A stretch of DNA of 64,000 nt from Streptomyces canus. GTDB taxonomy: Bacteria > Actinomycetota > Actinomycetes > Streptomycetales > Streptomycetaceae. Location: contig NZ_CP107989.1 of the NCBI RefSeq assembly GCF_041435015.1, positions 9,300,001-9,364,000 on the forward strand, written 5' to 3'. This document shows, piece after piece, positions 5,871 through 35,096 of the stretch. The translations under genes were made by a program, and so were the position numbers. Below the pieces are notes generated by a model. That model was given only the letters and a program-made list of their open reading frames with translations. It had not been told where the DNA came from and did no database searches. Position 1 is the stretch's first letter, and each line of letters opens with the position of its first letter.

Positions 5871-6443
5871 TCAGTCGATGAACGTGCGGGCGTTCTCGAC
5901 TCCCCGCTCGAGGACCTCGTCGGCGAACTTGCGGTCGGCGAGGGCGCGGGACAGCTGCAGCGTCCCCACCATCATGGTGAAGAGCCCGATGGCTCGGCCG
6001 CGAGCGGACTGTGGATCCGCGGGCGCCAGACGGACGGCGATCTCTTCCACGATGGCCGTCGCGCCCTCGGTGTACGCCTGCTTGGTGCCGTCCGCGCAGC
6101 GGCCGATCTCGTCGAGCAGAGCGGCGGAGGGGCATCCGGTGCCGGGCCGGTCACGGTGCTCGGGCGACAGATAGCCGCGAACGAAGTCCTCAAGTCCCTC
6201 TCGGCCGGGCCGCAGCGTGTCGCACTGATCCGCCAGTGTGTGCAGTTCATGGGCGACGACGTGGGCGACGAGGTCCTCCTTGGAGGCGAAGTGGGCGTAG
6301 AACGCTCCATTGGTGAGCCCGGCGTCCGCCATCAGTGTGGAGATACCCGAACCGTCGATGCCGTCCTGTTTGAATCGTTGGCCGGCCTTCTCGATGATTC
6401 GCTGCCGCGTCACCTGCTTGTGCTCCTTGGCGTAGCGCGCCAC
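5871..6443 (-). CDS. TetR-family transcriptional regulator (paralogue of 3110-3700)
   Basis: A 190-residue repressor closely related to the TetR protein at 3110 (shared RYxKEHK, GQRFKQDGIDGSGISTL, GLTNGAFYAHFASKEDLV, GCPSAALLDEIGRC). GTG 6443 is the start because AAGGGGAG lies about eight bases upstream; the longer reading from 6536 adds 31 residues without a ribosome site. A clean dyad (6506-6525) sits in the promoter and is the likely self-operator. It is divergent from the HxlR gene at 6622. Downstream is the amidase remnant, possibly its former target. Confidence 0.88.
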   Translation of the reverse strand: MARYAKEHKQVTRQRIIEKAGQRFKQDGIDGSGISTLMADAGLTNGAFYAHFASKEDLVAHVVAHELHTLADQCDTLRPGREGLEDFVRGYLSPEHRDRPGTGCPSAALLDEIGRCADGTKQAYTEGATAIVEEIAVRLAPADPQSARGRAIGLFTMMVGTLQLSRALADRKFADEVLERGVENARTFID

Positions 6444-20305: not shown

Positions 20306-20328
20306 TCTGACGGAGCATCAGAAAACCC
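20306..20328 (+). promoter_or_regulatory. operator TCTGAC-N5-ATCAGA, matching the one at 32071
   Basis: TCTGAC (20306-20311) and ATCAGA (20317-20322) are inverted arms followed by AAACCCC. The site is 43 bp upstream of ATG 20365. The same arms, spacing and AAACCC flank occur at 32071-32093. A TetR-type dimer site is inferred. Confidence 0.6.
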
Positions 20329-20364
20329 CTTCCGTCGTCCGGTGGTCTGCGGCATCCTGCGGCC

Positions 20365-21474
20365 ATGCAGACGGAGCTGAGCAAGAAACTGGGAGTCGAG
20401 CACGCCGTCTTCGGCTTCACGCCGTTCCCCGCCGTCGCCGCGGCCATCAGCCGGGCCGGCGGTTTCGGAGTGCTCGGCGCGGTCCGTTACACGGCCCCTG
20501 ACGAACTCAAACGCGACCTCGACTGGATCGAGGCGAACGTCGACGGCAAGCCGTACGGCCTGGACGTCGTGATGCCCGCCAAGAAGGTCGAGGGGGTGAC
20601 CGAGGCGGACGTCGAGGCCATGATCCCCGAGGGGCACCGGCAGTTCGTCAAGGACACCCTCGCCAAGTACGGCGTGCCCGAACTGGCGGAGGGCGAGGCG
20701 TCGGGGTGGCGTATCACGGGCTGGATGGAGCAGGTCGCCCGCAACCAGCTGGACGTCGCCTTCGACTATCCGATCCGGCTGCTCGCCAACGCCCTCGGCT
20801 CCCCGCCCGCCGACGTGGTGGCCCGCGCGCACGATCAGGACGTCCTCGTCGCGGCCCTCGCGGGCAGCGCCCGGCACGCGGTCAAGCACAAGGAGGGCGG
20901 CATCGACATCGTGGTCGCGCAGGGCTACGAGGCCGGCGGCCACACCGGAGACATCGCCTCCATGGTCCTCACGCCCGAGGTCGTCGACGCCGTGGACCCG
21001 CTGCCCGTGCTGGCGGCGGGCGGCATCGGCAGCGGACAGCAGGTGGCGGCCGCGCTGGCACTCGGGGCTCAGGGTGTGTGGCTGGGCTCCCTGTGGCTGA
21101 CCACCACGGAGGCCGAACTGCCCTCGCCCAGACTCATCGAGAAGCTGCTGGCGGCCGGCTCCGGCGACACCGTCCGCTCCCGTGCGCTGACCGGGAAACC
21201 CGCGCGCCAGCTCCGTACGGAATGGACCGACGCCTGGGACTCCGCCGACGGACCCGGCACCCTCCCGATGCCCCTGCAGGGCCTGCTGGTCGCCGATGCG
21301 GTGTCCCGCATCCAGAAGTACGAGGTGGAGCCACTGCTGGGCACGCCCGTCGGCCAGATCGTCGGACGGATGACCAGCGAACGCAGCGTCCAGGCCGTCT
21401 TCGACGACCTCACCCGCGGCTTCGAGAAAGCCGTCGACCGTATCAACCGCATCGCCGGAAGGAGCGGCCAGTGA
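20365..21474 (+). CDS. NAD(P)H-dependent flavin oxidoreductase (nitronate monooxygenase family)
   Basis: A 369-residue TIM-barrel FMN enzyme. Family marks are GGFGVLGAVRYT near the N-terminus, DIVVAQGYEAGGHTGDIASM in the middle (phosphate-binding and catalytic His region) and PVLAAGGIGSGQQVAAALALGAQGVWLGS. The family includes nitronate monooxygenases and also CoA-thioester reductases such as mycobacterial IpdC in steroid ring degradation. It overlaps the downstream acyl-CoA ligase by four bases (GTGA), so the two act together, which favours a CoA-ester role over nitronate detoxification. The promoter carries the operator at 20306. Confidence 0.88.
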   Translation: MQTELSKKLGVEHAVFGFTPFPAVAAAISRAGGFGVLGAVRYTAPDELKRDLDWIEANVDGKPYGLDVVMPAKKVEGVTEADVEAMIPEGHRQFVKDTLAKYGVPELAEGEASGWRITGWMEQVARNQLDVAFDYPIRLLANALGSPPADVVARAHDQDVLVAALAGSARHAVKHKEGGIDIVVAQGYEAGGHTGDIASMVLTPEVVDAVDPLPVLAAGGIGSGQQVAAALALGAQGVWLGSLWLTTTEAELPSPRLIEKLLAAGSGDTVRSRALTGKPARQLRTEWTDAWDSADGPGTLPMPLQGLLVADAVSRIQKYEVEPLLGTPVGQIVGRMTSERSVQAVFDDLTRGFEKAVDRINRIAGRSGQ

Positions 21475-23024
21475 CGAGCACACCTCCCGCGGGATTCTGG
21501 GCCCAGGCCACCCAAGACCCTTCGCGTACGGTCCTCATCGCCCCGGACGGCTCGCCCTGGACCGCCGGCCGCCTCCACGCCGCCGCCAACCAGCTCGTGC
21601 ACGGCCTGCGCGCCGCCGGACTCGAACGCGGTGACGCCTTCGCCGTCGTCCTGCCGAACAGCGCCGAGTTCTTCACCGCGCACCTCGCCGCCAGCCAGGC
21701 CGGCTTCTATCTGGTCCCGATCAACCACCACTTCGTCGCCCCCGAGATCGCCTGGATCGTCGCCGACTCCGGCGCCAAGGTACTCATCGCGGACGAACGC
21801 TTCGCCGCCGCGGCACGGCAGGCGGCCGACGAGGCGGGCCTCCCGGCGAGCCACCGCTACGCCGTCGGCGAGATCGACGGCTTCCGGCCGTACGCCGAAC
21901 TCCTCGACGGGCAACCGGAGTCGGCGCCTGCCGACCGCGAACTCGGCTGGGTCATGAACTACACCTCGGGTACGACGGGCCGCCCGCGCGGAATCCGCCG
22001 GCCCCTGCCCGGCAAGCGGCCGGAGGAGGCGTACCTCGGGGGCTTCCTCGGCATCTTCGGCATCCAGCCCTTCGGCGACAACGTCCACCTGGTCTGCTCG
22101 CCGCTCTACCACACGGCCGTCCTCCAGTTCGCGGCCGCTTCCCTGCACATCGGGCACCGGCTGGTCCTGATGGACAAGTGGACACCCGAGGAGATGCTGC
22201 GGCTGATCGACGCACACCGGTGCACCCACACCCACATGGTCCCGACCCAGTTCCACCGCCTGCTGGCCCTGCCGGAGGAGGTCCGGGCGCGCTACGACGT
22301 CTCGTCCATGCGGCACGCCATCCACGGAGCCGCCCCCTGCCCCGACCATGTGAAGCGGGCGATGCTCGACTGGTGGGGGCCCTGTGTGGAGGAGTACTAC
22401 GCGGCCAGCGAGGGCGGCGGAGCCTTCGCGACCGCCGAGGACTGGCTGAAGAAGCCCGGCACGGTCGGCAAGGCCTGGCCCATCAGCGAACTCGCGATCT
22501 TCGACGACGACGGCAACCGGCTGCCGCCAGGCGAACTCGGCACCGTGTACCTGAAGATGAACACGGGCGGCTTCGCGTACCACAAGGACGAGGCCAAGAC
22601 GAAGAAGAACCGCATCGGAGACTTCTTCACCGTGGGCGACCTGGGTCTGCTGGACGAGGACGGTTACCTCTTCCTCCGCGACCGCAAGATCGACATGATC
22701 ATCTCCGGCGGGGTGAACATCTACCCCGCCGAGATCGAGTCCGTCCTGCTCCAGCACCCCGCAGTGGCCGACGCCGCCGCCTTCGGCATCCCGCACGACG
22801 ACTGGGGCGAGGAGGTCAAGGCCGTGGTGGAACCGGCCCCGGGCCGCGCGCCCGGGCCGGACCTGGCCGAAGACCTCCTCGCCCACTGCGCCGCACAACT
22901 CGCCGGCTACAAGCGCCCGAAGAGCGTCGACTTCATCACCGAGATGCCCCGCGATCCCAACGGCAAGCTGTACAAGCGACGCCTGCGGGATCCGTACTGG
23001 CAGGGGCGCTCGCGACCGGTGTGA
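21471..23024 (+). CDS. AMP-dependent acyl-CoA ligase (FadD type)
   Basis: A 517-residue adenylating enzyme that joins a carboxylic acid to CoA. The P-loop is MNYTSGTTGRPRGIRRP, the adenine-binding block is EEYYAASEGG, the hinge is RDRKIDMIISGGVNIYPAEI and the catalytic C-terminal Lys is in NGKLYKRRLRD. GTG 21471 overlaps the preceding stop, so it is translationally coupled to the flavin oxidoreductase. It converges with the penicillin acylase gene, with three bases between the stops. The acid substrate is unknown. Confidence 0.92.
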   Translation: MTSTPPAGFWAQATQDPSRTVLIAPDGSPWTAGRLHAAANQLVHGLRAAGLERGDAFAVVLPNSAEFFTAHLAASQAGFYLVPINHHFVAPEIAWIVADSGAKVLIADERFAAAARQAADEAGLPASHRYAVGEIDGFRPYAELLDGQPESAPADRELGWVMNYTSGTTGRPRGIRRPLPGKRPEEAYLGGFLGIFGIQPFGDNVHLVCSPLYHTAVLQFAAASLHIGHRLVLMDKWTPEEMLRLIDAHRCTHTHMVPTQFHRLLALPEEVRARYDVSSMRHAIHGAAPCPDHVKRAMLDWWGPCVEEYYAASEGGGAFATAEDWLKKPGTVGKAWPISELAIFDDDGNRLPPGELGTVYLKMNTGGFAYHKDEAKTKKNRIGDFFTVGDLGLLDEDGYLFLRDRKIDMIISGGVNIYPAEIESVLLQHPAVADAAAFGIPHDDWGEEVKAVVEPAPGRAPGPDLAEDLLAHCAAQLAGYKRPKSVDFITEMPRDPNGKLYKRRLRDPYWQGRSRPV

Positions 23025-23027
23025 GCC

Positions 23028-25424
23028 TCAGGAACGGACCCGGACGACCCGCAGCGCCGGCGACGACAGGATGTCCTTCTCGCAGAACCGGGACGTCACC
23101 CACTTCTCCGCCGAGAACAGCCGCGTCTGGTCGCTGAAGTGCGGTGAGTTCGGGTTCGAGGACTGGGAGTACGTCAGCAGGGTCCGGGCCACCGGGCAGC
23201 GACCGCCGTCCCAGCCCACCGCCTGGATGTAGCTGGACCCGGTCGTTACCTCCGTGTATCCGCCGCCCGCCGGGTCCCACACCGGCTCGACCTTGTTCCA
23301 CACCCCCAGCGACTCGGTACCGCCCGGAACGGCGATGCGCTTGCCGTTCCGTACGACGAACTGGTGCTCCCCGAGCCGCGAGTCCAGCGGGACACCGGCC
23401 GCCCCGAGCTCGGTCACCGTGTCCGCGAGGGCCGTGGCGAAGGCCGGCGCGTCGGTGTTGAGCGTGTTCGGGGTGCCCACCGGGTCGGCCGCCGAGAACG
23501 GCACCTTCCACAGCGAGGAAGTGGGCAGTTTCCGCCAGAGCCGGTCGAAGAGCAGCGCACCCCGGCTGTCGGTGTTCGCGGTGCGGTCCCAGGCCGCGAG
23601 CACCCCGCAGGCCTCGCGGACGTCAACCGAGGCGCCGTCACTGCCTGTTGCCGTGCCACCAGGAAGCGCGGCACATGCCTTCGCCGCGTCCGCCGCCGCG
23701 AGGCCGCCCCCGGTCACCCGGTTGGCGAACTGCTGCGCCTGAAGGTCCCGTACGGTCAGCCGCCCGCGCGCGGCCATCGCGGACACGTCCTGGAGAGCAC
23801 CACGGGTGCGCATCGAGCGCTGTGTGCCCACGGTGCCGAAGACCCGCTCGTACCCGGTGATCGGCCGCTCGGCGTTGGCCAGCCAGGCGCTGTCGTTGGA
23901 GTTCTCCGCGTACGGCGCGTCCTTGAGGACCGGCATCTTCGCGGGCCCGAAGATCCCCGGCTGCACGGCGTCCGGATCACTGCCGAGGGCACAGTCGCCG
24001 CGCGAGCCGTCGAGGATCGCCACGCCCGAGGCGGGGTAGGTGACCCTGCCCAGGGGAGTGGAGCAGCGCTGGGCCAGCTCGTCGGTGATCCGGGGGAGCA
24101 CCTGGGACTGGGTGAACAGCGTGTGCCCCTGTGCGTCGGCGGCGATCGTGTTGACCCACGGCAGACCCTGGGTGCGCTTCAACGCGCCCAGAACGTCACC
24201 GGTACTGCGGGCCTTGCTGAAGCCGAGGGCCGTGTCGGAAGCGCGCAGGTTGGTGGCGTTCGGGTCATTGAGGGCGTACGCCGTCGTGGTCGTCCAGGGC
24301 AGGGGCAGCGAGGCGCCGAGCGAGGTGACGACCGGGCCGTACCGCGTCCACCACTGGGTCTTCGTCACCGGTTCGCCGCCCTGGACGGCGACGGTCACCC
24401 GGCGCTCGGTCATCCGCTCCGGTTTGCCGTCGACGAGGTACGTCGTCGGGTCGGCGGGGTCCAGGGTGAGCTGGTGCAGGTTGAGGGTGACGCCCGTGGC
24501 CACGGTGTGGCTCCAGGCCACCTGCGCGTTGTGGCCTATGGAGATGGTCGCCGAGCCGAGCAGCGAGCCGCCCGCGATGTTCAGTTCGCCGGGGATGGTC
24601 TGCTGCGACTGCCAGAAGCGGCGGCCGCCCTGCCAGGGGTAGTGCGGATTGCCGAGGAGCAGCCCGCGGCCGTTCGCCGTCGTGGCCCCGCTGAAGGCGA
24701 CCGCGTTGGAGCCCATGTCGGCGGAGTCGGCGGCGAAGAGTTCCCGGGCCGCGCGGGCGGTGTCCCGGGCGTCGGGCGCGCCGGATGCGCCGGTGGTGGA
24801 CGCGGGCGGCTGCGCGGCCGTGATGCCGTCCACGGCCCGGCCCTGACCGCCGAGCACGGCCAGCGCGAAGTTGCGCGCGGCCACGTCCTGGACCGTCACC
24901 GGGCGCACCCAGCCGGCACCCTTGCACGCCGGGTCGGTGATCGGGTTCTTCCGCAGCCAGGCGTTGTAGCCCGCCGCGAAGCCCCGCATCAGCTCCTTCA
25001 CCGCACGGCTCGGACCGCGCGGCGCAGGCGTGGCCATCAGCTTCTCCACCGTCCCCGCCTCCCGCACCCCGCGGAAGTACAGGTCGCTGGAGAGGTTCCT
25101 GGTGGCCGAGGAGAGCGCGGTGTCGGAGGCCGCGTCGGCCCCGAAGAAGCGCGAACGCTCGCCGCGCACGGTCACGAAACCGTCGGCGAGCGTGCACACC
25201 TGGTCGGTGGCCTGCGCCCACCCGGTGCCGAAACCGAGGTCCGCGTAGTTCTTCGCGAGGATGTGCGGGATGCCGTACTCGGTGTAGCGGATGGTGGCGG
25301 ACAGACCGCCGTGGGACGGATGTTCCTGTTTCTGCTGGTTCTGCGCGGCTGCGGCCGGCAGCGTGCCGACGGCGGTGAACAGGGCCACGGCCGCGACGAC
25401 GGCGTGTCTGAGACGGGTGCGCAT
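23028..25424 (-). CDS. secreted penicillin-acylase-family N-terminal-nucleophile hydrolase
   Basis: A 798-residue exported amidase of the Ntn group (penicillin G acylases, acyl-homoserine-lactone acylases such as AhlM). A signal peptide (positively charged MRTRLRH, then AAVALFTAVGTLPAAAA, cleavage near residue 27) precedes the alpha subunit. The nucleophile Ser239 follows the processing Gly in ADMGSNAVAF; maturation would remove a spacer just before it. ATG 25424 has GGGAGG upstream. It is divergent from the ligase at 25488, sharing a 63-bp promoter with a dyad. The substrate could be a lipid amide, N-acyl lactone or beta-lactam. Confidence 0.9.
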   Translation of the reverse strand: MRTRLRHAVVAAVALFTAVGTLPAAAAQNQQKQEHPSHGGLSATIRYTEYGIPHILAKNYADLGFGTGWAQATDQVCTLADGFVTVRGERSRFFGADAASDTALSSATRNLSSDLYFRGVREAGTVEKLMATPAPRGPSRAVKELMRGFAAGYNAWLRKNPITDPACKGAGWVRPVTVQDVAARNFALAVLGGQGRAVDGITAAQPPASTTGASGAPDARDTARAARELFAADSADMGSNAVAFSGATTANGRGLLLGNPHYPWQGGRRFWQSQQTIPGELNIAGGSLLGSATISIGHNAQVAWSHTVATGVTLNLHQLTLDPADPTTYLVDGKPERMTERRVTVAVQGGEPVTKTQWWTRYGPVVTSLGASLPLPWTTTTAYALNDPNATNLRASDTALGFSKARSTGDVLGALKRTQGLPWVNTIAADAQGHTLFTQSQVLPRITDELAQRCSTPLGRVTYPASGVAILDGSRGDCALGSDPDAVQPGIFGPAKMPVLKDAPYAENSNDSAWLANAERPITGYERVFGTVGTQRSMRTRGALQDVSAMAARGRLTVRDLQAQQFANRVTGGGLAAADAAKACAALPGGTATGSDGASVDVREACGVLAAWDRTANTDSRGALLFDRLWRKLPTSSLWKVPFSAADPVGTPNTLNTDAPAFATALADTVTELGAAGVPLDSRLGEHQFVVRNGKRIAVPGGTESLGVWNKVEPVWDPAGGGYTEVTTGSSYIQAVGWDGGRCPVARTLLTYSQSSNPNSPHFSDQTRLFSAEKWVTSRFCEKDILSSPALRVVRVRS

Positions 25425-25465
25425 CGTGCCTCCCAACGTCGTTGAGGGAAGGAGCGGTTGAGCGT

Positions 25466-25479
25466 ACCAACCGGTAGGT
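25466..25479. promoter_or_regulatory. operator dyad ACC-A-ACCGGT-A-GGT
   Basis: A 14-bp palindrome with a single mismatched pair (25469/25476), placed in the 63-bp gap between the acylase start (25424) and the ligase start (25488). This form is common for TetR regulators of lipid genes in actinobacteria. It differs from the TCTGAC-type site at 20306 and 32071. Confidence 0.5.
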
Positions 25480-25487
25480 TGTCCCGT

Positions 25488-26984
25488 ATGACGCCTGGAC
25501 ACGGCAGTACGGTTGACGGGGTGCTGCGGCGCAGCGCCCGGCGCACCCCGGCGCGCGTCGCGGTGGAGTACGGCGAGCGATCGTGGACCTACGAGGAACT
25601 CGACGACGCCGTCTCACGGGCGGCGCGCGTTCTCCTCGACCAGGGCCTGGACCGCGGTGACCGGGTCGGCGCCTACGGCCACAACTCGGACGCGTATCTG
25701 ATCGGCTTCCTCGCGTGCGCCCGCGCGGGACTGGTCCACGTGCCGGTCAACCAGAACCTCACCGGCGACGATCTCGCGTACCTCGTCGGCCAGTCGGGCA
25801 GCACGCTCGTCCTCGCCGATCCCAACCTCGCGGGGCGGCTGCCGGAGGGTGTGCGCACGGTGCCCCTGCGGGACGCCGACTCGTCGCTGCTGGCCCGCCT
25901 GGCCACGGCGTCGCCGTACGACGGCCCCGAACCGCGCAGCGAGGACCTCGTCCAGCTGCTGTACACCTCGGGGACGACGGCCCTGCCCAAGGGCGCGATG
26001 ATGACCCACCGGGCCCTGGTCCACGAGTACCTGAGCGCGATCACCGCCTGCGATCTCAGTGCGGGTGACCGGCCCGTGCACTCGCTGCCGCTCTACCACT
26101 CGGCCCAGATGCACGTCTTCCTGCTGCCGTATCTCGCGGTCGGCGCGACGAACATCATCCTCGACGCGCCCGACGGCGACCGCCTCTTCGACCTGATCGA
26201 GCAGGGCCGCGCGGACAGCCTGTTCGCGCCGCCCACGGTGTGGATCGGACTGTCCAACCGTCCCGACTTCGCCACGCGTGACCTCGGCGGGCTGCGCAAG
26301 GCGTACTACGGCGCCTCGATCATGCCGGTGCCCGTCCTGGAACGACTCCGCGAGCGCCTGCCGAAGCTGGCCTTCTACAACTGTTTCGGCCAGAGCGAGA
26401 TCGGTCCGCTCGCCACCGTCCTCGCGCCCGACGAGCACAAGGGGCGGATGGACTCCTGCGGCCGTACCGTCCTGTTCGTCGACGCGCGGGTCGTGGACGA
26501 GAACGGCAAGGACGTGCCGGACGGAACGCCCGGCGAGATCGTCTACAAGTCGCCGCAGTTGTGCGAGGGCTACTGGGACAAGCCCGAGGAGACCGAAGCG
26601 GCCTTCCGGGACGGCTGGTTCCACTCCGGTGACCTCGCGGTGCGGGACGCGCACGGTTACTTCACGATCGTCGACCGGGTGAAGGACGTCATCAACTCCG
26701 GTGGCGTGCTGGTCGCCTCACGCCAGGTCGAGGACGCGCTGTACACGCACGACGCCGTGGCAGAGGTCGCCGTGATCGGCCTGCCCGACGAGCGGTGGAT
26801 CGAGGCCGTCACGGCGGTCGTCGTCCCGCGCGGCGAGGTCACCGAGACCGAGCTCCTCGACCACGCCCGGGAGAAGCTCGCCCACTTCAAGGCACCCAAG
26901 CGGGTGGTGTTCGTGGACGAGCTGCCGAGGAATGCGAGTGGGAAGATCCTGAAGCGGGAGCTGCGGGACCGGTTCGCGGGCTAG
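25488..26984 (+). CDS. AMP-dependent acyl-CoA ligase (FadD type)
   Basis: A 498-residue acyl-CoA synthetase. Visible are LLYTSGTTALPKGAMMTHRA (P-loop), the adenine-binding YNCFGQSEIGP, GWFHSGDLAVRDAHGYF, the hinge DRVKDVINSGGVLVASRQVE and the catalytic Lys in NASGKILKREL. ATG 25488 is chosen because it follows the palindrome and gives the family length. It is divergent from the penicillin acylase: an acid released by that secreted enzyme could be activated here, which is inference. It ends tail-to-tail with paaK, sharing the CTAG stop. Confidence 0.92.
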   Translation: MTPGHGSTVDGVLRRSARRTPARVAVEYGERSWTYEELDDAVSRAARVLLDQGLDRGDRVGAYGHNSDAYLIGFLACARAGLVHVPVNQNLTGDDLAYLVGQSGSTLVLADPNLAGRLPEGVRTVPLRDADSSLLARLATASPYDGPEPRSEDLVQLLYTSGTTALPKGAMMTHRALVHEYLSAITACDLSAGDRPVHSLPLYHSAQMHVFLLPYLAVGATNIILDAPDGDRLFDLIEQGRADSLFAPPTVWIGLSNRPDFATRDLGGLRKAYYGASIMPVPVLERLRERLPKLAFYNCFGQSEIGPLATVLAPDEHKGRMDSCGRTVLFVDARVVDENGKDVPDGTPGEIVYKSPQLCEGYWDKPEETEAAFRDGWFHSGDLAVRDAHGYFTIVDRVKDVINSGGVLVASRQVEDALYTHDAVAEVAVIGLPDERWIEAVTAVVVPRGEVTETELLDHAREKLAHFKAPKRVVFVDELPRNASGKILKRELRDRFAG

Positions 26985-28276
26985 CGGGGGCGCAGGTCGA
27001 CGATCCGGCGGATCTTTCCGACGGACCGCTCCAGGGACTCCGGTTCGACGATCTCGACGACGACCGACACCCCGATGCCGTCCTTGACGGCCGTCGCGAT
27101 GGTCCGTGCGGCCGCGTCCCGGGTCTCGGGTGTGGCGCCCGGCCGGGCCTCCGCGCGCACGGTGAGGGCGTCGAGGCGGCCCTCGCGGGTGAGGCGGAGC
27201 TGGAAGTGCGGTGCGACGCCCGGGGTGCGCAGGACGATCTCCTCGATCTGCGTGGGGAAGAGGTTCACCCCGCGCAGGATCACCATGTCGTCGCTGCGGC
27301 CGGTGACCTTCTCCATCCGCCGGAACACGCGGGCCGTGCCCGGCAGCAGCCGGGTCAGATCCCGGGTCCGGTAGCGGATGACGGGCATCGCCTCCTTGGT
27401 GAGCGAGGTGAACACCAGCTCACCCCTCTCGCCGTCCGGCAGCACCTCGCCGGTGATCGGGTCGACGATCTCGGGGTAGAAGTGGTCCTCCCACACATGG
27501 AGCCCGTCCTTGGTCTCCACGCACTCCTGCGCGACGCCCGGGCCGATCACCTCCGACAGCCCGTATATGTCCACGGCGTCGATCGCGAACCGCTCCTCGA
27601 TCTCCCGGCGCATCTCCTCGGTCCAGGGCTCGGCACCGAAGACGCCCACGCGCAGGGACGTGCCGCGCGGATCGACACCCTGCCGCTCGAACTCGTCGAG
27701 AAGCGTGAGCATGTACGACGGGGTCACCATGATGATGCGGGGTTCCAGGTCCTGGATGAGCTGGACCTGGCGTGCCGTCATGCCGCCGGACGCGGGGACG
27801 ACCGTACAGCCGAGCCGTTCGGCGCCATAGTGAGCGCCGAGTCCACCGGTGAACAGCCCATAGCCGTACGCCACATGCACCACGTCCCCGGGCCTGCCGC
27901 CGGCCGCCCGGATGGAACGCGCCACCATGTCGGCCCACAGGTCCAGATCGTTGTCGGTGTAGCCGACGACCGTGGGGCGCCCGGTGGTGCCGCTGGAGGC
28001 ATGGATGCGCCGCACATGGTCCCGGGGCACGGCGAACATCCCGTACGGATAGTGCTCGCGCAGGTCCGCCTTGGTGGTGAACGGGAACCGGGCCAGGTCG
28101 GTCAGGGAGCGGCAGTCGTCAGGCCGGACACCCGCCTTGTCGAAGGACTCCCGATAGAACGGCACGTGCTCGTACGCGTGCCGCAGCGACGCCCGCATGC
28201 GCTCCAGCTGCACCGCCCGCAACGCCCCGGCATCCAGCCGTTCCCCCGAGTCCAGCAGCTCCGCCGCATCCGCCAT
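26981..28276 (-). CDS. paaK: phenylacetate-CoA ligase
   Basis: A 431-residue PaaK-type ligase, shorter than FadD enzymes, that activates phenylacetate or a related arylacetate with ATP and CoA. The N-terminal LRHAYEHVPFYRESFDKAGV, the P-loop IHASSGTTGRPTVVGYT, DIYGLSEVIGPGV, and the C-terminal GRSDDMVILRGVNLFPTQIEE and SVGKIRRIVD are all diagnostic. None of the paaABCDE oxygenase genes are nearby, so it probably feeds a dispersed pathway. A perfect dyad (28312-28329) lies 36 bp upstream. Confidence 0.95.
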   Translation of the reverse strand: MADAAELLDSGERLDAGALRAVQLERMRASLRHAYEHVPFYRESFDKAGVRPDDCRSLTDLARFPFTTKADLREHYPYGMFAVPRDHVRRIHASSGTTGRPTVVGYTDNDLDLWADMVARSIRAAGGRPGDVVHVAYGYGLFTGGLGAHYGAERLGCTVVPASGGMTARQVQLIQDLEPRIIMVTPSYMLTLLDEFERQGVDPRGTSLRVGVFGAEPWTEEMRREIEERFAIDAVDIYGLSEVIGPGVAQECVETKDGLHVWEDHFYPEIVDPITGEVLPDGERGELVFTSLTKEAMPVIRYRTRDLTRLLPGTARVFRRMEKVTGRSDDMVILRGVNLFPTQIEEIVLRTPGVAPHFQLRLTREGRLDALTVRAEARPGATPETRDAAARTIATAVKDGIGVSVVVEIVEPESLERSVGKIRRIVDLRPR

Positions 28277-28311
28277 CGGAACGTCCCTTTCGCCAACCGC
28301 GTCATCACGGG

Positions 28312-28329
28312 CGACCGATCATTCGGTCG
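28312..28329. promoter_or_regulatory. perfect operator dyad CGACCGA-N4-TCGGTCG before paaK
   Basis: CGACCGA (28312-28318) and TCGGTCG (28323-28329) are exact inverted arms around TCAT, upstream of paaK on its coding strand. ACCGA/TCGGT arms recall TetR-type repressors that respond to acyl-CoA or aryl-CoA. No regulator gene is adjacent, so the repressor would act from elsewhere. Confidence 0.6.
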
Positions 28330-28370
28330 TGGTGGGGATCAGTAATCCAGGCGATCGGCGCGGAGGCAAG

Positions 28371-30218
28371 TCACTTCGCGAACGCCGTCATGAAGCGGTC
28401 GCGGAACTTGTCCATGCCCCACTCGGGCGCGTTGTCGGCGGGCTTGAGGCCGTCCGTCCAGTTCCAGTCGTCGACCCGGTCCAGCACCTTCGGGTCCTTG
28501 GCGACGATCGTGATCGGCACGTCCATGCTGGTCGATCCCTTGGTGACGGTCGGGACGGGCTGGTGGTCGCCGAGGAAGACCAGAACCGTGTTCTCGTCGC
28601 CGTAGCGCTGCATCCACTGGGTCAGGCTGTCCACGGAGTACTGGATGGCCTTGCGGTACTCGGTGCGCACCCGCTCCTGACTCTTCCAGACCTCCGTCGG
28701 GTTCGTGCCCTCCTTCTTGATCTGCTCGAAGACGGAGCCGTCACCGAGGTCGTTCCAGTCGATCGTGTGGGCGATCGGCGACCAGGGGTTGTGACTGGAC
28801 GCCAGGATGATCTCCGCCATGATCGGGTCACGGTTCTTCTTGCCGTGCTCCAGCTTCTGGAAGGCCTCCAGGCTGAACTGGTCCGGCACGGGGGTCCAGC
28901 TGAAGTACGGACCCTTGTAGCCGAGGTGCGTGGAGTCGTAGATGTGGTCGAGGCCGAAGTACTTGCCCTCGGGCCAGGACTTGCGCACCCCCGGCACGAT
29001 GCCGACCGTGCGCCAGTCACCGGTCTTCTGGAAGTAGCTGGTGAGGGTCGCGCGCTTGCTGGAGGTGAGGTTCAGGTACCGCTGCTGGTTCTTGACCCAC
29101 AGGCCGGACAGGAAGGTGGAGTGCGCCATCCAGCTGCCGGCGCCCGTCACGGGGGACTTCAGCCAGCCGCTGCGCGACGCGAACCCGGCCGACTTGAGCG
29201 TCGCGTCGCCCTTCTTGAGGGTCGCGTCGATCTCGGGTGCCATCGCCGGGTCGTCGATCGCCACGCGGCCGTAGCTCTCGATGAAGGTGAACATGACGTC
29301 CTTGCCGTGCAGCCCGGTCAGGAGCTGGTCGGGAGGCGTGGCGGCGAAGGCGTCGACGGCGGACTGCTTCTCGAAGACCTTGGCGTCGCCCAGTCCGTTG
29401 CGGACGTGCTGCACCCGGTTGGCGAGGAACTCGGTGTTGCCCTTGGTGGCGAACGCGACCCCGCCGAACTGCACGCCCACCGTGAAGCAGGTGACCCAGA
29501 CCGTGCCGAGGACGAGGGTGGTGCCGACGGCCGTCTGACGGTGCCGGGACATCACGTTCGCCAGCCGTACCACCGCCCACGTGCACAGCGCGAGCACGGC
29601 GATGAACAGGACGATCACCCCGGTCACCGCGAGCACCTCGCCGGTGCGGCCGAACGACTCCCTGAGCCAGTCCGTCGCGTTGCCCAGCATGATCCAGTCG
29701 AAGACCAGGTCGAACGGCCTGGCCAGGGTCTGGTAGAAGCCCATGTCCATGAACTTCAGGACGGTGAACAGCCCGAGGAACACCCCGGAGAGGACGGCCG
29801 CGATCCGGCGCGCCTTCGGCGGCAGCACGAGAAGGACGGCCGTGAGGACGATCGCCTCGACGGGGAGACGGAAGAACGACCGGAGGTTCATGTGGTCGAG
29901 CCGGTTGGGGAAGAGCAGCACGAGCAGCACCAGCAGACCGGCCAGCACGCTCGTCCCCACGGACACGCCATGGGCCTTACGGGGGTAGCGGCGGCGCCAG
30001 CCGAACCAGCCGGGGCGTGGGGAGTCGTTCCGCGCGGGACCGCTCTCGTCACCGGTTTCCGAGGACTCCGCCGTCTCCGTGGCCTCGGCGGTCTCGGCTG
30101 CCCCAGCCTCCGCTACGGCCTCCTCCGTCAGGTCTTCCCGCGTCGCACCCCCACCTTCCGCTTCCGCCTCGCCCCCAGTGGTACCCGGCAGTTGGCGAGA
30201 ACGAGTGAAGAGCGACAC
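28371..30218 (-). CDS. LtaS-like membrane sulfatase / phosphoglycerol transferase
   Basis: A 615-residue membrane enzyme. An acidic, Glu/Ala/Thr-rich cytoplasmic N-terminus (about 1-75) precedes five hydrophobic helices (about 85-250), followed by a large extracytoplasmic sulfatase-fold domain with FIESYGRVAIDD, GSWMAHSTFLSGL and the metal-binding LVFLGDHQPVP. This matches the LtaS/alkaline-phosphatase superfamily that moves phosphoglycerol-type groups onto cell-surface polymers. GTG 30218 is the start, with GGAAGGA about eight bases upstream; an earlier in-frame ATG at 30308 lacks one. Confidence 0.87.
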   Translation of the reverse strand: MSLFTRSRQLPGTTGGEAEAEGGGATREDLTEEAVAEAGAAETAEATETAESSETGDESGPARNDSPRPGWFGWRRRYPRKAHGVSVGTSVLAGLLVLLVLLFPNRLDHMNLRSFFRLPVEAIVLTAVLLVLPPKARRIAAVLSGVFLGLFTVLKFMDMGFYQTLARPFDLVFDWIMLGNATDWLRESFGRTGEVLAVTGVIVLFIAVLALCTWAVVRLANVMSRHRQTAVGTTLVLGTVWVTCFTVGVQFGGVAFATKGNTEFLANRVQHVRNGLGDAKVFEKQSAVDAFAATPPDQLLTGLHGKDVMFTFIESYGRVAIDDPAMAPEIDATLKKGDATLKSAGFASRSGWLKSPVTGAGSWMAHSTFLSGLWVKNQQRYLNLTSSKRATLTSYFQKTGDWRTVGIVPGVRKSWPEGKYFGLDHIYDSTHLGYKGPYFSWTPVPDQFSLEAFQKLEHGKKNRDPIMAEIILASSHNPWSPIAHTIDWNDLGDGSVFEQIKKEGTNPTEVWKSQERVRTEYRKAIQYSVDSLTQWMQRYGDENTVLVFLGDHQPVPTVTKGSTSMDVPITIVAKDPKVLDRVDDWNWTDGLKPADNAPEWGMDKFRDRFMTAFAK

Positions 30219-30362
30219 CCGGTGGTCCTTCCGTGCGGTCTTGCTGTGACGTGCGGTCGTGCAGCGACGGCATGACGAACAGGGCCCAATGACCGAGCCT
30301 GCCACCACCAGTACGTTCGCACGTCACGTTCGGTTCAATCGCACGGGGTCGGGATTCGACCG

Positions 30363-31976
30363 TCACCCGTCCGCCGCCACCGCCACCTTCTGCGCCCACC
30401 GATAGTCCGCCTTGCCGCTCGGGGACCGGCGGATGGACTGAGCGAGCACCAGCTGGCGCGGCACCTTGTACCCCGCGAGCCGCTCCCGGCAGTGGGTCTG
30501 GAGGTCGTCCAGGGACATCCGCGCCGCGCCCTCGCGCAACTGCACGACGGCCGCCACATGGTGCCCCCACCTCACGTCCGGCACCCCGGCCACGAGCGCG
30601 TCGTACACGTCGGGATGCGCCTTGAGCGCCTGCTCGACCTCCTCCGGGTACACCTTCTCGCCGCCCGTGTTGATGCACTGCGAGCCCCTCCCGAGGACGG
30701 TGACGACCCCCTCCTCGTCGACGGTGGCCATGTCCCCGAGCAGCACCCAGCGCTCGCCGTCCTTCTCGAAGAAGGTGTCGGCGGTTTTCCGCGGGTCGTT
30801 GTAGTAGCCGAGCGGCACATGGCCGCACTGGGCGACCCGGCCCACCTCGCCCACGGCCACCGGTTCGTGCGTGGCCGGATCGACCACCTGGGTACGGGAG
30901 TTCACCCGGACACGGAAGCCACGCTCAGGGCCGGAGTCCTCGGTCGCCGTCCCGTTGAAGCCGGACTCGGAGGAGCCGAAGTTGTCGAGCAGCATGGCGT
31001 TCGGGACGAGTGCCCGGAACTGCCGGCTCACCGTGTCCGACATGATCGCGCCGGACGAGGACACGCTGAACACCGACGACATGTCGGTGCCCTTCATCGG
31101 GCCCTCCAGCGCGTCGATGAGCGGCCGCAGCATCGCGTCACCCACCAGCGACATGGCGCTGACCTTCTCCCGCTCCACGGTCCGCAGCACTTCCTCGGGT
31201 ACGAACCTGCGATGCAGTACGACCCGTTGGCCGAAGTTGAAGCCGATGAGGGTGGTCAGTGTGGAGGTGCCGTGCATCAGCGGCGGTGTGGGGAAGAAGG
31301 TGATCCCCGCCCCGCCCGCGGCGACCCGCTCGGCGAGTTCCTCGGGCCGCTTGACCGGCTCACCGGTGGGTGCGCCCCCGCCCAGCCCCGAGAAGAACAG
31401 GTCCTCCTGACGCCACATGACACCCTTGGGCATCCCGGTGGTACCGCCGGTGTAGATGATGAACTGGTCGTCGGCCGAGCGCGCCGGGAATCCGCGCTCC
31501 GGCGACCCGCCGGCCTCGGCGTCCGTGAAGTCCACCGCCGGCAGCCGACCCGGTTCCCCGTCCCCGGCCCGCACCAGGTGCCGCAGCCGTTCCGCCTGCG
31601 GCAGCGCGGCCGCGACCCGGTCCGTGAACTCGGCGTCGAAGACGAGCGCCACCAGATCCGCGTCCCGGTAGAGGTATACCAACTCCTCTTCCACGTATCG
31701 GTAATTGACGTTGACCGGGACGATCCGTGCCTTCAGGCAGCCCAGCAATGTCTGCACGTACTCCACCCCGTTGTAGAGGTGCAGCCCGACGTGCTCACCG
31801 GGCCGTACTCCGCTGTCGAGCAGATGGTGGCCGATGCGATTGGCCGCGGCGTCCAGTTCCGCGTACGTCAGCCTGCGCTCCGCGCCCGTACCGGGAATGT
31901 CGAGGTACGCGAGCGCCTCACGGTCCGGCACCACGTCGACGACGGACTCGAACAGGTCGGCAAGGTTGTACTCCAC
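30363..31976 (-). CDS. acyl-CoA ligase, FadD19-like (sterol side-chain type)
   Basis: A 537-residue ligase whose wording follows mycobacterial FadD19: VNVNYRYVEEELVYL, FIIYTGGTTGMPKGVMWRQE, LVGDAMLRPLIDAL, DNFGSSESGFNG, GRGSQCINTGGEKVYPEEVE and RSPSGKADYRWA. FadD19 activates branched C26/C27 sterol side chains in Mycobacterium; the same chemistry on a related substrate is inferred here. It is divergent from the crotonase gene, an arrangement also found for fadD19/echA19, with the TCTGAC-type operator between them. Confidence 0.9.
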   Translation of the reverse strand: MEYNLADLFESVVDVVPDREALAYLDIPGTGAERRLTYAELDAAANRIGHHLLDSGVRPGEHVGLHLYNGVEYVQTLLGCLKARIVPVNVNYRYVEEELVYLYRDADLVALVFDAEFTDRVAAALPQAERLRHLVRAGDGEPGRLPAVDFTDAEAGGSPERGFPARSADDQFIIYTGGTTGMPKGVMWRQEDLFFSGLGGGAPTGEPVKRPEELAERVAAGGAGITFFPTPPLMHGTSTLTTLIGFNFGQRVVLHRRFVPEEVLRTVEREKVSAMSLVGDAMLRPLIDALEGPMKGTDMSSVFSVSSSGAIMSDTVSRQFRALVPNAMLLDNFGSSESGFNGTATEDSGPERGFRVRVNSRTQVVDPATHEPVAVGEVGRVAQCGHVPLGYYNDPRKTADTFFEKDGERWVLLGDMATVDEEGVVTVLGRGSQCINTGGEKVYPEEVEQALKAHPDVYDALVAGVPDVRWGHHVAAVVQLREGAARMSLDDLQTHCRERLAGYKVPRQLVLAQSIRRSPSGKADYRWAQKVAVAADG

Positions 31977-32070
31977 CGCTCCTCCTGACCCAACACGGCC
32001 TGCTTCTCCGACGGTTCGCCGGTCATCAGAGCAAAGGGCGGCGTGACTGTGAAGGGTTCGCGCGAATAAA

Positions 32071-32093
32071 TCTGACTGACTGTCAGAAAACCC
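32071..32093. promoter_or_regulatory. operator TCTGAC-N5-GTCAGA in the ligase/crotonase promoter
   Basis: TCTGAC (32071-32076) and GTCAGA (32082-32087) are perfect inverted arms followed by AAACCC. The site is 66 bp before the crotonase start and 95 bp before the ligase start. Arms, spacing and flank repeat those at 20306. Outer AAGGGTT (32052-32058) and AACCCTT (32089-32095) could extend the dyad. Confidence 0.65.
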
Positions 32094-32152
32094 TTGAAGT
32101 GCGTCGGCACCTCCTGCAACCTGTTCTCGTTCTGGCAGAGGGGAGACGGGCG

Positions 32153-32953
32153 ATGAGTGGGACGGAACACCTCAACATCCAGCGTGAGGGCGCCACACTG
32201 GTGCTCACGCTCAACAGGCCGGAGGCGAAGAACGCGCTCTCGTTGCCGATGCTGGTCGGCCTCTACGACGGCTGGCTGGAAGCGGACGCGGACGACTCGA
32301 TCCGCTCGGTCGTCTTCACCGGCGCGGGCGACTCGTTCTGTGCCGGCATGGACCTCAAGGCCCTCGCGGGCAAGGGCACCGGCGGCGAGCAGTACCGGGA
32401 CCGGCTGACCGCCGACCCGGACCTGCACTGGAAGGCGATGCTGCGGCACCACCGCCCCCGCAAGCCGGTGATCGCGGCGGTCGAGGGCTACTGCGTCGCG
32501 GGCGGCACGGAGATGCTCCAGGGCACCGACATCCGGGTCGCCGGCGAGTCCGCGACCTTCGGCCTCTTCGAGGTCAGGCGCGGCCTGTTCCCGATCGGCG
32601 GCTCCACGGTCCGGCTGCAACGCCAGATCCCGCGCACCCACGCGCTGGAGATGCTGCTCACCGGCCGCCCGTACACCGCACGCGAGGCCGCCGACATCGG
32701 CCTGATCGGTCACGTCGTCCCGGACGGCACGGCGCTCACCAAGGCCCTGGAGATCGCCGAACTGATCAACGCCTGCGGTCCGTTGGCGGTGGAGGCGGTG
32801 AAGGCCTCGGTCTACGAGACGGCCGAGACGACCGAGACCGAGGGCCTGGCCGCCGAGCTCAAGCGGGGCTGGCCGATCTTCGACACCGCCGACGCGAAGG
32901 AGGGTGCCCGCGCCTTCGCGGAGAAGCGGCAGCCCGTTTACCGGCGCGCGTGA
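32153..32953 (+). CDS. enoyl-CoA hydratase (crotonase family), EchA19-like position
   Basis: A 266-residue crotonase that hydrates 2-enoyl-CoA in beta-oxidation. Oxyanion-hole segments are SFCAGMDLKAL (about 61-71) and AVEGYCVAGGTEM (about 109-121). The position of the first catalytic Glu holds FGLFEVRRGLFP, the usual place. GAGGGGAGA precedes ATG 32153. It heads a plus-strand unit with the DUF35 and thiolase-fold genes and is divergent from the FadD19-like ligase. Confidence 0.93.
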   Translation: MSGTEHLNIQREGATLVLTLNRPEAKNALSLPMLVGLYDGWLEADADDSIRSVVFTGAGDSFCAGMDLKALAGKGTGGEQYRDRLTADPDLHWKAMLRHHRPRKPVIAAVEGYCVAGGTEMLQGTDIRVAGESATFGLFEVRRGLFPIGGSTVRLQRQIPRTHALEMLLTGRPYTAREAADIGLIGHVVPDGTALTKALEIAELINACGPLAVEAVKASVYETAETTETEGLAAELKRGWPIFDTADAKEGARAFAEKRQPVYRRA

Positions 32954-33093
32954 GCGATGTCGTCGCAGGTGCGTCGGACACTGCGGGCCGTCGGTGGCCG
33001 GCCGCGCAGTTCCCCGCGCCCCTCGGGCGTCGCACCGCCGAGCCACCGTCCGCCCACCCACGCGCGTCCGTCCTCGAAGGAGGCACGCCCTCG

Positions 33094-34035
33094 ATGCCCG
33101 AAGTACTCAAAGCCCCTCTGGTCGTCGAATTCCCCTTCACCCGCTCCCTCGGCCCCGTCCAGAGCGCCTTCCTGACCGGCCTGCGCGAGCGTGTCGTCCT
33201 CGGCGTGACGACCCGCGACGGCCGCACCCTGGTCCCGCCCGTCGAGTACGACCCCGTCACCGCCGAGGAGATCAGCGACCTCGTCCACGTGGGCACCACC
33301 GGCACCGTCACCACCTGGGCCTGGAACCACGAACCCCGTCGCGGTCAGCCGCTGGACACGCCCTTCGCCTGGGCCCTGGTGAAGCTCGACGGCGCCGACA
33401 CCGCCCTGCTGCACGCCCTCGACGCCCCCGGGCCCGACGCCGTCCGCACCGGCATGCGCGTGCGGATCCGCTGGGCCGAGGAACGCCGCGGCGCCATCAC
33501 CGACATCGCCTGCTTCGAGCCGTACGACGGAGACGATTCCACCGTCACCGTCCACGCGGGCGAGTTCGAGGACCCCGTCCACGGCATCGTCGCCCAGGCC
33601 CGCCTCGACTACACCTACTCACCGGGCCGCGCCCAGACCGCGTACATCAACGCCCTCGCCGAACACCGGGCCGTCGGCGAGCGCTGCCCGGCCTGCCGCA
33701 AGGTGTACGTCCCGCCGAGGGGTGCATGCCCCACATGTGGCGTGGCCACAGCGGAACAGGTGGAAGTAGGTCCTGCCGGCACGGTGACCACCTTCTGCAT
33801 CGTCAACATCAAGGCGAAGAACCTCGACATCGAAGTCCCGTACGTCTACGCCCACATCGCCCTCGACGGCGCCGACCTCGCGCTGCACGGCCGGATCGGC
33901 GGCATCCCGTACGACCAGGTGCGCATGGGCCTCAGGGTCGAGCCGGTGTGGAGCGAGGGCGGCCGCTACCCGGACCACTACCGGCCGACCGGCGAACCCG
34001 ACGCGGACTACGAGACGTACAAGGAGCTCCTGTGA
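33094..34035 (+). CDS. tandem OB-fold DUF35 protein with one zinc ribbon
   Basis: A 313-residue partner protein. Two DUF35 OB-fold halves are visible: the N-terminal one (about 1-165) has no Cys-x-x-Cys pair, and the C-terminal one (about 185-313) starts with a rubredoxin-like ribbon (ERCPACRKVYVPPRGACPTC) followed by an OB fold. Such proteins bind thiolase-like Ltp proteins to form aldolase or thiolase complexes. GAAGGAGG precedes ATG 33094. Length and place match mycobacterial Rv3521. The next gene overlaps by four bases. Confidence 0.88.
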   Translation: MPEVLKAPLVVEFPFTRSLGPVQSAFLTGLRERVVLGVTTRDGRTLVPPVEYDPVTAEEISDLVHVGTTGTVTTWAWNHEPRRGQPLDTPFAWALVKLDGADTALLHALDAPGPDAVRTGMRVRIRWAEERRGAITDIACFEPYDGDDSTVTVHAGEFEDPVHGIVAQARLDYTYSPGRAQTAYINALAEHRAVGERCPACRKVYVPPRGACPTCGVATAEQVEVGPAGTVTTFCIVNIKAKNLDIEVPYVYAHIALDGADLALHGRIGGIPYDQVRMGLRVEPVWSEGGRYPDHYRPTGEPDADYETYKELL

Positions 34036-35096
34036 CCAGCGACGCAGCCCCGGAGCCCCGCGACATCGCCGTCGTGGCCTTCGCCCAGTCCGACACCCTG
34101 CGCTCCACCGCCGAAGTCTCCGAGGTGGAGATGCTCATGCCGGTCCTGCACGACGTCATCGCGCAGACCGGTCTGAAGACCGCAGACATCGGCTTCACCT
34201 GCTCCGGTTCCTGTGACTACCTCGCGGGGCGGGCCTTCTCCTTCACCCTGGCCCTCGACGGCGTGGGCGCCTGGCCGCCCATCTCCGAGTCGCACGTCGA
34301 GATGGACGGGGCCTGGGCCCTGTACGAGGCGTGGACGAAGCTGCTGTCCGGGGACGCCGACACCGCCCTGGTGTACGCGTACGGCAAGTCCTCACCCGGA
34401 TCCCTGCGCGACGTGCTCACCCGGCAGCTGGACCCGTACTACGTCGCCCCCCTGTGGCCCGACTCCGTCGCCCTCGCCGCCCTCCAGGCCCAGGCGCTGA
34501 TCGACGCGGGCGCCACGGACGAACCCGAGCTGGCGGCCATCGGCGCCCGGAGCCGCGCGACCGACAACCCGCGCGCACAGCTCAAAGGCCCTGTACCGCA
34601 GGGCGATTACCTCGTACGACCACTCCGCACCGGAGACTGCCCGCCCGTCGGAGACGGGGCTGCCGCCGTGGTCCTCGCGGCGGGGGAGCGGGCCAGGGAG
34701 CTGTGCGAGCGCCCCGCCTGGATCCGCGGGATCGACCACCGCATCGAGGCGCACTCGCTCGGCGTCCGTGACCTCACCGACTCTCCCTCCACCCGCCTGG
34801 CGGCCGAGCGGGCCGGGGCCTTCGAACGGCCCGTGGACACCGCCGAGTTGCACGCGTCGTTCACCTCGCAGGAAGTCGTCCTGCGCAAGGCGCTGCGGCT
34901 CGGTGACGAAGTCGCCGTCAATCCGTCCGGCGGTGCCCTCGCCGCCAACCCGATGATGGCCGCCGGGCTCGCCCGTATCGGCGAGGCCGCCGCCCGGATC
35001 CACCGGGGCGAGTCCGACCGGGCCCTCGCCCACGCCACCTCCGGGCCCTGTCTCCAGCAGAACCTGGTCGCCGTACTCGAAGGGGATCCGCGATGA
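34032..35096 (+). CDS. thiolase-fold protein (Ltp4-like), catalytic Cys absent
   Basis: A 354-residue thiolase-superfamily protein. Where thiolases read CaSGsaAl, this one has VEMDGAWALYEA (about residues 88-99), so the nucleophilic Cys is replaced, apparently by Glu. The C-terminal VNPSGGALAANPM keeps the thiolase Gly loop. GTG 34032 overlaps the DUF35 stop (GTGA). Homologues such as Ltp2 work with DUF35 proteins as retro-aldolases rather than thiolases. Place and length match Rv3522 (Ltp4). The reaction is inferred. Confidence 0.87.
   Translation: MTSDAAPEPRDIAVVAFAQSDTLRSTAEVSEVEMLMPVLHDVIAQTGLKTADIGFTCSGSCDYLAGRAFSFTLALDGVGAWPPISESHVEMDGAWALYEAWTKLLSGDADTALVYAYGKSSPGSLRDVLTRQLDPYYVAPLWPDSVALAALQAQALIDAGATDEPELAAIGARSRATDNPRAQLKGPVPQGDYLVRPLRTGDCPPVGDGAAAVVLAAGERARELCERPAWIRGIDHRIEAHSLGVRDLTDSPSTRLAAERAGAFERPVDTAELHASFTSQEVVLRKALRLGDEVAVNPSGGALAANPMMAAGLARIGEAAARIHRGESDRALAHATSGPCLQQNLVAVLEGDPR

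Follow-up and report, generated by a model that had tools for sequence, protein, structure and literature searches.

The window considered here, a stretch of 64,000 nucleotides of the Streptomyces canus genome (C1:9300001-9364000 of 10.68 megabases, C1 being contig NZ_CP107989.1; seven-digit positions refer to C1 and shorter ones to the window), contains two copies of a short palindrome, TCTGAC-N5-RTCAGA, each followed by AAACCC. Operator 1, TCTGACGGAGCATCAGA, occupies 20306-20322 and ends 42 base pairs (bp) before the ATG at 20365; operator 2, TCTGACTGACTGTCAGA, occupies 32071-32087 within the divergent promoter of a fadD19-like and an echA19-like gene. Neither is assigned to a strand. A first-pass annotation, made from the letters of the window, had pointed to this pair; both sites are where it placed them, and the motif proves enriched over its control on the scale of the genome. 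The gap it gave before the flavoprotein gene, 43 bp, measures 42 bp, although the position of the site itself was correct.

Operator 1 precedes two plus-strand genes that we refer to as the monooxygenase operon: a flavoprotein of the nitronate-monooxygenase family (20365-21474; PF03060) and an AMP-binding acyl-CoA (coenzyme A) ligase (21471-23024), for which the nearest NCBIfam models, PRK12406 and FadD4, both score below cut-off. On one side of operator 2, on the minus strand, is an acyl-CoA ligase of the PRK07798 subfamily (30363-31976; 747.8 bits, cut-off 543), whose likeness to FadD19 was proposed in the first-pass annotation. On the other side four plus-strand genes encode an EchA19-like enoyl-CoA hydratase (32153-32953; 373 bits against the NCBIfam EchA19 cut-off of 400, with EchA19 as best PDB match), a ChsH2-type OB-fold/zinc-ribbon protein (32950-34035, the start being uncertain between 32950 and 33094), a lipid-transfer protein or thiolase-like protein (34032-35096; PRK07937, 566.3 bits, cut-off 419) and a thiolase-domain protein (35093-36259; PRK08313, 711.5 bits, cut-off 514). 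The first-pass annotation had described both sites as facing CoA-ester genes. Conserved blocks, in the first case among 30 aligned promoters, suggest core promoters on the plus strand for the monooxygenase operon (20330-20358; TTCCGT at 20330-20335, 17 bp, CATCCT at 20353-20358) and for the echA19-like gene (32094-32122; TTGAAG at 32094-32099, 17 bp, CAACCT at 32117-32122). In both, the operator ends 6-7 bp ahead of the -35-like block, which is followed 17 bp later by CAACCT or CATCCT. The transcript of the monooxygenase operon is probably leaderless.

Within the window, a shuffle test allowing up to two mismatches was too weak to be informative (5 matches against 6.0 expected). Across the whole genome, with the pattern read backwards as a control, exact TCTGAC-N5-RTCAGA occurs at 12 places against 0, and the GTCAGA form occurs at 48 sites against 2 when one mismatch is allowed and at 263 against 103 when two are allowed. 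One exact match (C1:5316353, locus L004) lies within a tRNA-Arg gene; the tRNA-derived sequence TCTGACTACGGATCAGA is found again in other genomes and raises the one-mismatch counts slightly. Genes were called with a simple in-house gene finder, and a site was taken to be in promoter position if it was non-genic and lay no more than 250 bp before a gene start or overlapped that start by no more than 20 bp. By this definition 29 of the 48 one-mismatch sites are in promoter position, 15 are intragenic and 4 are neither, and the exact GTCAGA sites are in promoter position without exception (8 of 8). Non-coding upstream DNA made up 9.2% of the sampled bases, a figure that can be set only roughly beside 29 of 48 because the stretches were picked for holding sites.

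Conservation within the genus was examined in 37 genomes, S. canus included, with gene presence decided by E-value limits. At these limits the EchA19-like hydratase and the monooxygenase are both present in the same 30 genomes and both missing from the same 7. Among the EchA19-like promoters 29 of 30 loci could be tested, one contig ending before the upstream DNA, and every one of the 29 has a site with at most one mismatch (25 exact, 4 with one mismatch). Scored against TCTGAC-N5-GTCAGA, the monooxygenase promoters have at most one mismatch in 24 of 30 cases, two in 5 and three in 1; most of these mismatches are the A of ATCAGA, itself the common state there. EchA sites mostly stand 60-65 bp before the start codon, with a maximum of 116 bp; for monooxygenase sites the gap is 42-43 bp, apart from two at 53 bp. 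In the EchA and monooxygenase sets respectively, the arms average 1.94 and 1.83 bits of information per position and the spacers 1.04 and 0.78, and in the flank the AAA is well conserved and the subsequent CCC partly so. Arms conserved around a variable spacer in sister species are the footprint of a protein-binding site, and two sister loci read through (G023 and G420) retain both sites together with the gene order. The first-pass annotation had held that a lack of conservation in sister species would speak against its proposal; what is seen there is strong conservation at both sites.

The genes next to the genomic sites point to a common theme. Pfam models were run on 20 proteins, of which 18 adjoin sites or sit in site-adjacent operons, the others being a kinase and a BTAD/NB-ARC protein. 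Three of the 18 are AMP-binding acyl-CoA ligases or ADP-forming synthetases. The others are acyl-CoA dehydrogenases, ChsH2-type OB-fold proteins, thiolases, amidohydrolases and luciferase-like monooxygenases (two of each), along with one enoyl-CoA hydratase, one flavin reductase, one putative cyclase, one pyridoxamine-oxidase-like protein and one short-chain dehydrogenase. One thiolase gene, at 8466142, is 0.4 kilobases (kb) from its site. Promoter sites are also found at genes of other kinds, with names given by sequence reading: a VOC-like gene, a ferredoxin-oxidoreductase-like operon, an ABC-transporter operon, a glycosyltransferase-like gene and a secreted-protein gene. Many random genomic hits unrelated to CoA metabolism had been named in advance as the result to fear; here most one-mismatch sites are placed at promoters and many of these are CoA-linked, but the intragenic ones look like chance matches and some promoter sites have no CoA link.

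The densest group of sites, 11 with at most one mismatch, spans C1:5714325-5788021, and in it the nearest start codon is just 4-54 bp from each site. Amid this cluster, 1.8 kb from a site and about 3.6 million bases from the window, is a tetR gene (C1:5742863-5743498) that we regard as the candidate regulator. Its product matches the TetR_C_38 ligand domain (PF19352) with 241.9 bits and TetR_N weakly; no solved structure is close, the best being EthR (E 2e-6), and the S. canus genome gives one match to it at E ≤ 1e-20. In the whole-genome search that the first-pass annotation had recommended, exact matches exceed their control, sites stand before acyl-CoA genes and a tetR gene lies in the site cluster. 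The same annotation had found no regulator gene for the motif in the window, in agreement with the location of the candidate outside it; the window does hold two mutually similar small TetR genes (3110-3700 and 5871-6443), which are unlike the candidate. A PF00440 scan, in which 150 of 435 candidates were scored, missed the cluster tetR, so that nothing can be read from it where a site has no TetR beside it.

The gene order at this locus is tetR, one further gene and a Ser/Thr kinase carrying a PQQ/beta-propeller domain. Beyond the kinase are genes for a protein of 62 residues with AfsS-type repeats and for one with BTAD, NB-ARC and TPR domains. We take this to be the afsK-afsS-afsR locus, the names afsS and afsR agreeing with sequence or domains. 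At C1:5741036-5759540 (L029) the candidate tetR and the sites at 5741036, 5750823, 5756498 and 5759524 are interleaved with the afsK-, afsS- and afsR-like genes. In Streptomyces coelicolor, one report places the TetR regulator gene SCO4421 near afsK (SCO4423) and describes it as developmentally regulated, with lower levels in a whiA mutant (PMC3878966). Because the order of tetR, one gene and kinase goes with a position of SCO4421 close to afsK, we consider it very likely, by synteny, that the candidate is the orthologue of SCO4421. The predicted catabolic regulon is, then, situated within an antibiotic-control locus.

It is informative to examine the occurrence of motif and protein across the phylum. 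One even draw of 396 genomes, 384 of them outside the genus, was used for both alike; the TetR was called present at E ≤ 1e-20, with seven candidates scored per genome. Outside the genus all 15 TetR-positive genomes have at least one exact site, and all 10 genomes with at least three sites are TetR-positive. The corresponding Fisher p values, 2e-13 for any exact site and 2e-16 for at least three, are uncorrected for kinship, and the TetR-positive genomes span nine families. Family f29 is a case in point: the TetR is found in G313 alone, which has five sites, one other genome has a single site and the remaining eight have none. The regions around the tetR gene are similarly rich in sites: in 80 named Streptomyces tetR loci (1.32 megabases) there are 24 exact sites (control 0) and 184 one-mismatch sites (control 1), with a one-mismatch site in 72 of the 80, and the 15 such loci from outside the genus yield 9 exact and 18 one-mismatch sites, the control giving none of either. 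A site is close to tetR itself in 4 of 14 non-genus loci, at -34 (one mismatch) and 738 (exact) from the start in L066, at -83 (two mismatches) in L062, and, as exact sites, at -688 in L058 and 675 in L063.

Taken together, these observations make it likely that the motif is the operator of the TetR at C1:5742863-5743498 and that this SCO4421 orthologue governs a scattered regulon of CoA-thioester catabolism in which both window units belong to one pathway. Several observations weigh on the other side. Exact sites also occur, one or two each and never more, in 46 of the 369 TetR-negative genomes outside the genus. Three of the 12 same-genus TetR-positive genomes in the draw (G171, G334 and G369) have no exact site, with one-mismatch counts of 6, 8 and 13 against 2, 0 and 1 for the control; such counts were made in 40 chosen genomes. 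In G016, which carries the TetR along with a single exact site, the one-mismatch count is 9 against 7, and the TetR-less G074 and G298 show one-mismatch counts of 13 (control 0) and 9 (control 1). G064, which is 62% complete, has two exact sites and a best TetR match no better than 5e-14. At the non-genus tetR loci, a gene start was near 9 of the 18 one-mismatch sites, by a crude gene call. The Streptomyces tetR gene has no good site of its own in 17 same-genus loci, the nearest being GCTGAC-N5-GACAGG (three mismatches) over the start codon. Finally, deletion of SCO4421 gave no detected phenotype in the published account (PMC3878966).

With these points in mind, the following mechanism can be put forward. 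A dimer of the TetR would bind the 17-bp palindrome (A)TCTGAC-N5-GTCAGA(T/A). The core of the regulon would surround tetR itself in the afsK-afsS-afsR-like region, and the two window units would be two promoters of that regulon, serving one pathway, a steroid-side-chain-like block of acyl-CoA degradation. A CoA thioester of the pathway substrate would then release the TetR from its operator, as CoA thioesters do in the KstR family. Binding, the ligand and repression rather than activation are what we infer. The steroid pathway is reported missing in 55 of 57 Streptomyces genomes (PMC4810484), and the substrate may accordingly be something other than a steroid; a steroid-side-chain-like block, kin to the KstR-governed one of mycobacteria, would be present in a genus that mostly lacks the pathway.

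The sign of regulation is where a different reading keeps the most ground. The sites of the tetR cluster are so close to start codons that their position suits repression, whereas in both window promoters the operator stands just upstream of a weak -35-like block, where activation is possible. A regulator that activates at the two window promoters and represses elsewhere is hence conceivable, if on balance rather unlikely: the promoter elements are themselves predicted from conservation, operator 2 stands before the fadD19-like gene too and may serve to repress it, and the majority of investigated TetR proteins are reported to be repressors (PMC3511530).

It is also worth considering that the sites might be used by another TetR with CTGAC half-sites, for example one of the SAV151 type, or by several TetR proteins. 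SAV151 of Streptomyces avermitilis is a TetR with TCTGAC and GTCAGA arms in one listed site, TCTGACATGGTGTCGTGTCAGA, and in this it is alike; it differs in that these equal arms are 10 bp apart and in that its reported target is the adjoining sav152-sav153-sav154 cluster (PMC10933834). The one-mismatch sites of G074 and G298, which occur without the cluster TetR, and the presence of at least 150 TetR_N matches in the S. canus genome are in keeping with such a protein. Against it, the arms of both window sites are 5 bp apart rather than 10, and co-occurrence over nine families fits the TetR_C_38 protein, the only TetR compared in this way. We consider this explanation improbable.

A close parallel to the proposed regulon is the KstR regulon of mycobacteria, in which a TetR likewise controls scattered lipid and steroid operons through a short palindrome, in that case TnnAACnnGTTnnA rather than TCTGAC-N5-GTCAGA. 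Its description names fadD19 and echA19 among the regulon genes and lists gel-shift-positive motifs at Rv3515c/Rv3516, Rv1894c/Rv1895 and Rv3520c/Rv3521 (PMC1995591). The ligase, hydratase, OB-fold, lipid-transfer and thiolase block of the window resembles the mycobacterial fadD19/echA19/ltp genes. We take Rv3515c/Rv3516 to be fadD19/echA19, and a monooxygenase like that of the window is presumably among the listed pairs. S. canus has a KstR homologue of its own (C1:7161601-7162236), the sole full-length KstR-like protein in the genome (201 bits against a cut-off of 280; KstR in the PDB, E 4e-39), with PF17925 as C-terminal domain in contrast to PF19352 in the candidate; its S. coelicolor counterpart is presumably SCO2319. 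Upstream of its gene is an exact KstR-type site, TGAAACTTGTTCTA, at C1:7162375. Other exact KstR-type sites are at 5114251, before an acyl-CoA dehydrogenase gene (5114325, named by sequence reading), at 9290276, before an acyl-CoA dehydrogenase gene identified by Pfam (9290334) and 9.7 kb left of the window, and at 7178506, before a dehydrogenase-like operon at 7178617 (named by sequence reading); genome-wide the pattern is mildly enriched (38 against 11), with several matches intragenic.

KstR-type sites also reach into the window block itself. The echA19-like promoter has one with a single mismatch, TGCAACCTGTTCTC, at 32115-32128 and without assigned strand, overlapping the predicted -10 element, which resembles the arrangement described for kstR itself (PMC1995591). 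Compared with the KstR consensus TNNAACNNGTTNNA, 29 Streptomyces EchA promoters are exact in 10 cases, have one mismatch in 16 (S. canus among them) and are worse in 3, and the best match of the window monooxygenase promoter to the KstR operator has two mismatches. In f77, a sister family of the same order whose genomes here are all of one genus and so not independent, the KstR-type site occurs as an exact match, TAGAACCTGTTGCA, in 10 of 10 monooxygenase promoters, and in nine EchA promoters it is exact in 3, has one mismatch in 4 and is worse in 2; the f77 form TAGAACGTGTTCTC has TGCAACCTGTTCnn as its counterpart in the Streptomyces EchA promoters. No TCTGAC site was found in the 19 upstream stretches (400 bp each) of the f77 monooxygenase and EchA genes, the best having three mismatches. 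Downstream of the monooxygenase, ACTGAC-N5-ATCAGA (two mismatches) is present in 8 of the 9 f77 genomes examined, the contig of the tenth coming to an end; it starts 38-47 bp before the ligase in 6 of the 8, those with a called ligase start, and in the ninth genome the contig stops, after a recombinase-like gene, before such a site is reached. Two f77 genomes were read further. In both, ligase, OB-fold, lipid-transfer and thiolase genes come after the monooxygenase in the same orientation, with two extra genes between in one of them, and echA19 is located apart from this stretch. In one of these two genomes the monooxygenase, ligase, OB-fold and lipid-transfer proteins share 210/360, 285/510, 142/301 and 185/309 identical residues with those of the window. 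In L290, L295 and L296, also of f77, a sigma-factor-like gene and a neighbour stand between the monooxygenase and the TCTGAC-type site.

One could suppose that the operator of the Streptomyces KstR homologue has changed and that the TCTGAC motif is now its target, since the genes at 30363-36259 resemble known KstR targets and the single full-length KstR-like protein of the genome has a one-mismatch TCTGAC site about 5 kb from its gene. That homologue, however, keeps an exact KstR-type site upstream, such sites persist at the two acyl-CoA dehydrogenase genes and the operon given above, and both site types stand side by side in the echA19 promoter and likewise in the f77 loci; we think it very improbable. 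That the repeat is a chance recurrence of a frequent palindrome, or a structural feature of the DNA that no regulator uses, is virtually excluded, since the tRNA match among the 12 exact ones and the 15 intragenic one-mismatch sites are what could be said for it, and the controls of 0 and 2, conservation of the arms and not of the spacer, and the phylum-wide co-occurrence refute it.

Returning to the SCO4421 orthologue as regulator, the f77 arrangement adds to the case, in that genes of both window units are united there in one stretch and so form one functional set in another lineage. The proposal that one TetR-type protein joins the two units in a single pathway gains support, as far as a regulator is concerned, from the motif set, the co-occurrence with the TetR, the joint presence in 30 of 37 genomes and this f77 linkage. 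As to its more specific part, that the protein is a repressor, the sign at the window promoters may be repression or activation, and the pair makes up just a small fraction of a wider regulon. What the window shows is a genuine operator and the tip of that regulon. In addition, the near-KstR site kept in the Streptomyces echA19 promoter, together with the f77 pattern, suggests an overlap of two TetR regulons, and the window block seems to be located where they meet. A simple replacement of KstR by the new regulator was considered and dropped, because f77 carries both operator types in the same stretch. One can go further and see in the orphan developmental regulator of the afsK-afsS-afsR locus the master of an ancient actinobacterial CoA-thioester regulon, with the window block recording a hand-over of operators with the KstR regulon: in f77 the KstR type stands before the monooxygenase and echA19 and the TCTGAC type before the ligase, and in Streptomyces TCTGAC stands before the monooxygenase-ligase pair and both types before echA19. 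We hesitate to lean either way on this broader reconstruction, for which the arguments appear evenly balanced. KstR and its sites have been placed at the common ancestor of Mycobacterium and Rhodococcus, with KstR paralogues mentioned in more distant organisms, in a 2012 study (PMC3388012); KstR-type sites beyond the mycobacteria-Rhodococcus group would widen that view of their origin.

As a kind, a TetR regulon of lipid catabolism is known. AccR of Streptomyces, for example, is similar in being a TetR that represses acyl-CoA genes located at several loci, and differs in its operator, GTTAA-N6-TTAAC (PMC10933834). The assignment of an operator and regulon to SCO4421 is new within the literature searched: searches by sequence words gave nothing useful beyond SAV151, SCO4421 and SCO2319 are each mentioned in a single paper there, and TetR_C_38 or PF19352 in none, with subscription literature outside the scope and an earlier description possible. 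SCO4421, with the same gene order in S. coelicolor as the candidate, is known without targets in the report that describes it (PMC3878966) and here acquires a candidate operator and regulon. A conserved regulator beside the antibiotic-control gene afsK thereby gains a testable role, and, if the assignment is true, development, antibiotic control and acyl-CoA supply become linked.

A few further observations concern the motif and TetR genes elsewhere. In families f15 and f50 many genomes have exactly one exact copy of the motif, without the TetR. In L067 (G050, C74) a tetR homologue is interrupted by one in-frame TGA, and an exact site is about 10 kb away. In S. canus another TetR, at C1:4055945, lies by the exact site 4054486; it was set aside as the regulator because KstR-type palindromes, and so palindromes of another type, precede its gene run. 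These two palindromes, TTGAACRCGTTCAA at C1:4054950 and 4054995 (L016), stand before genes ending in tetR 4055945 and are possibly its own operators.

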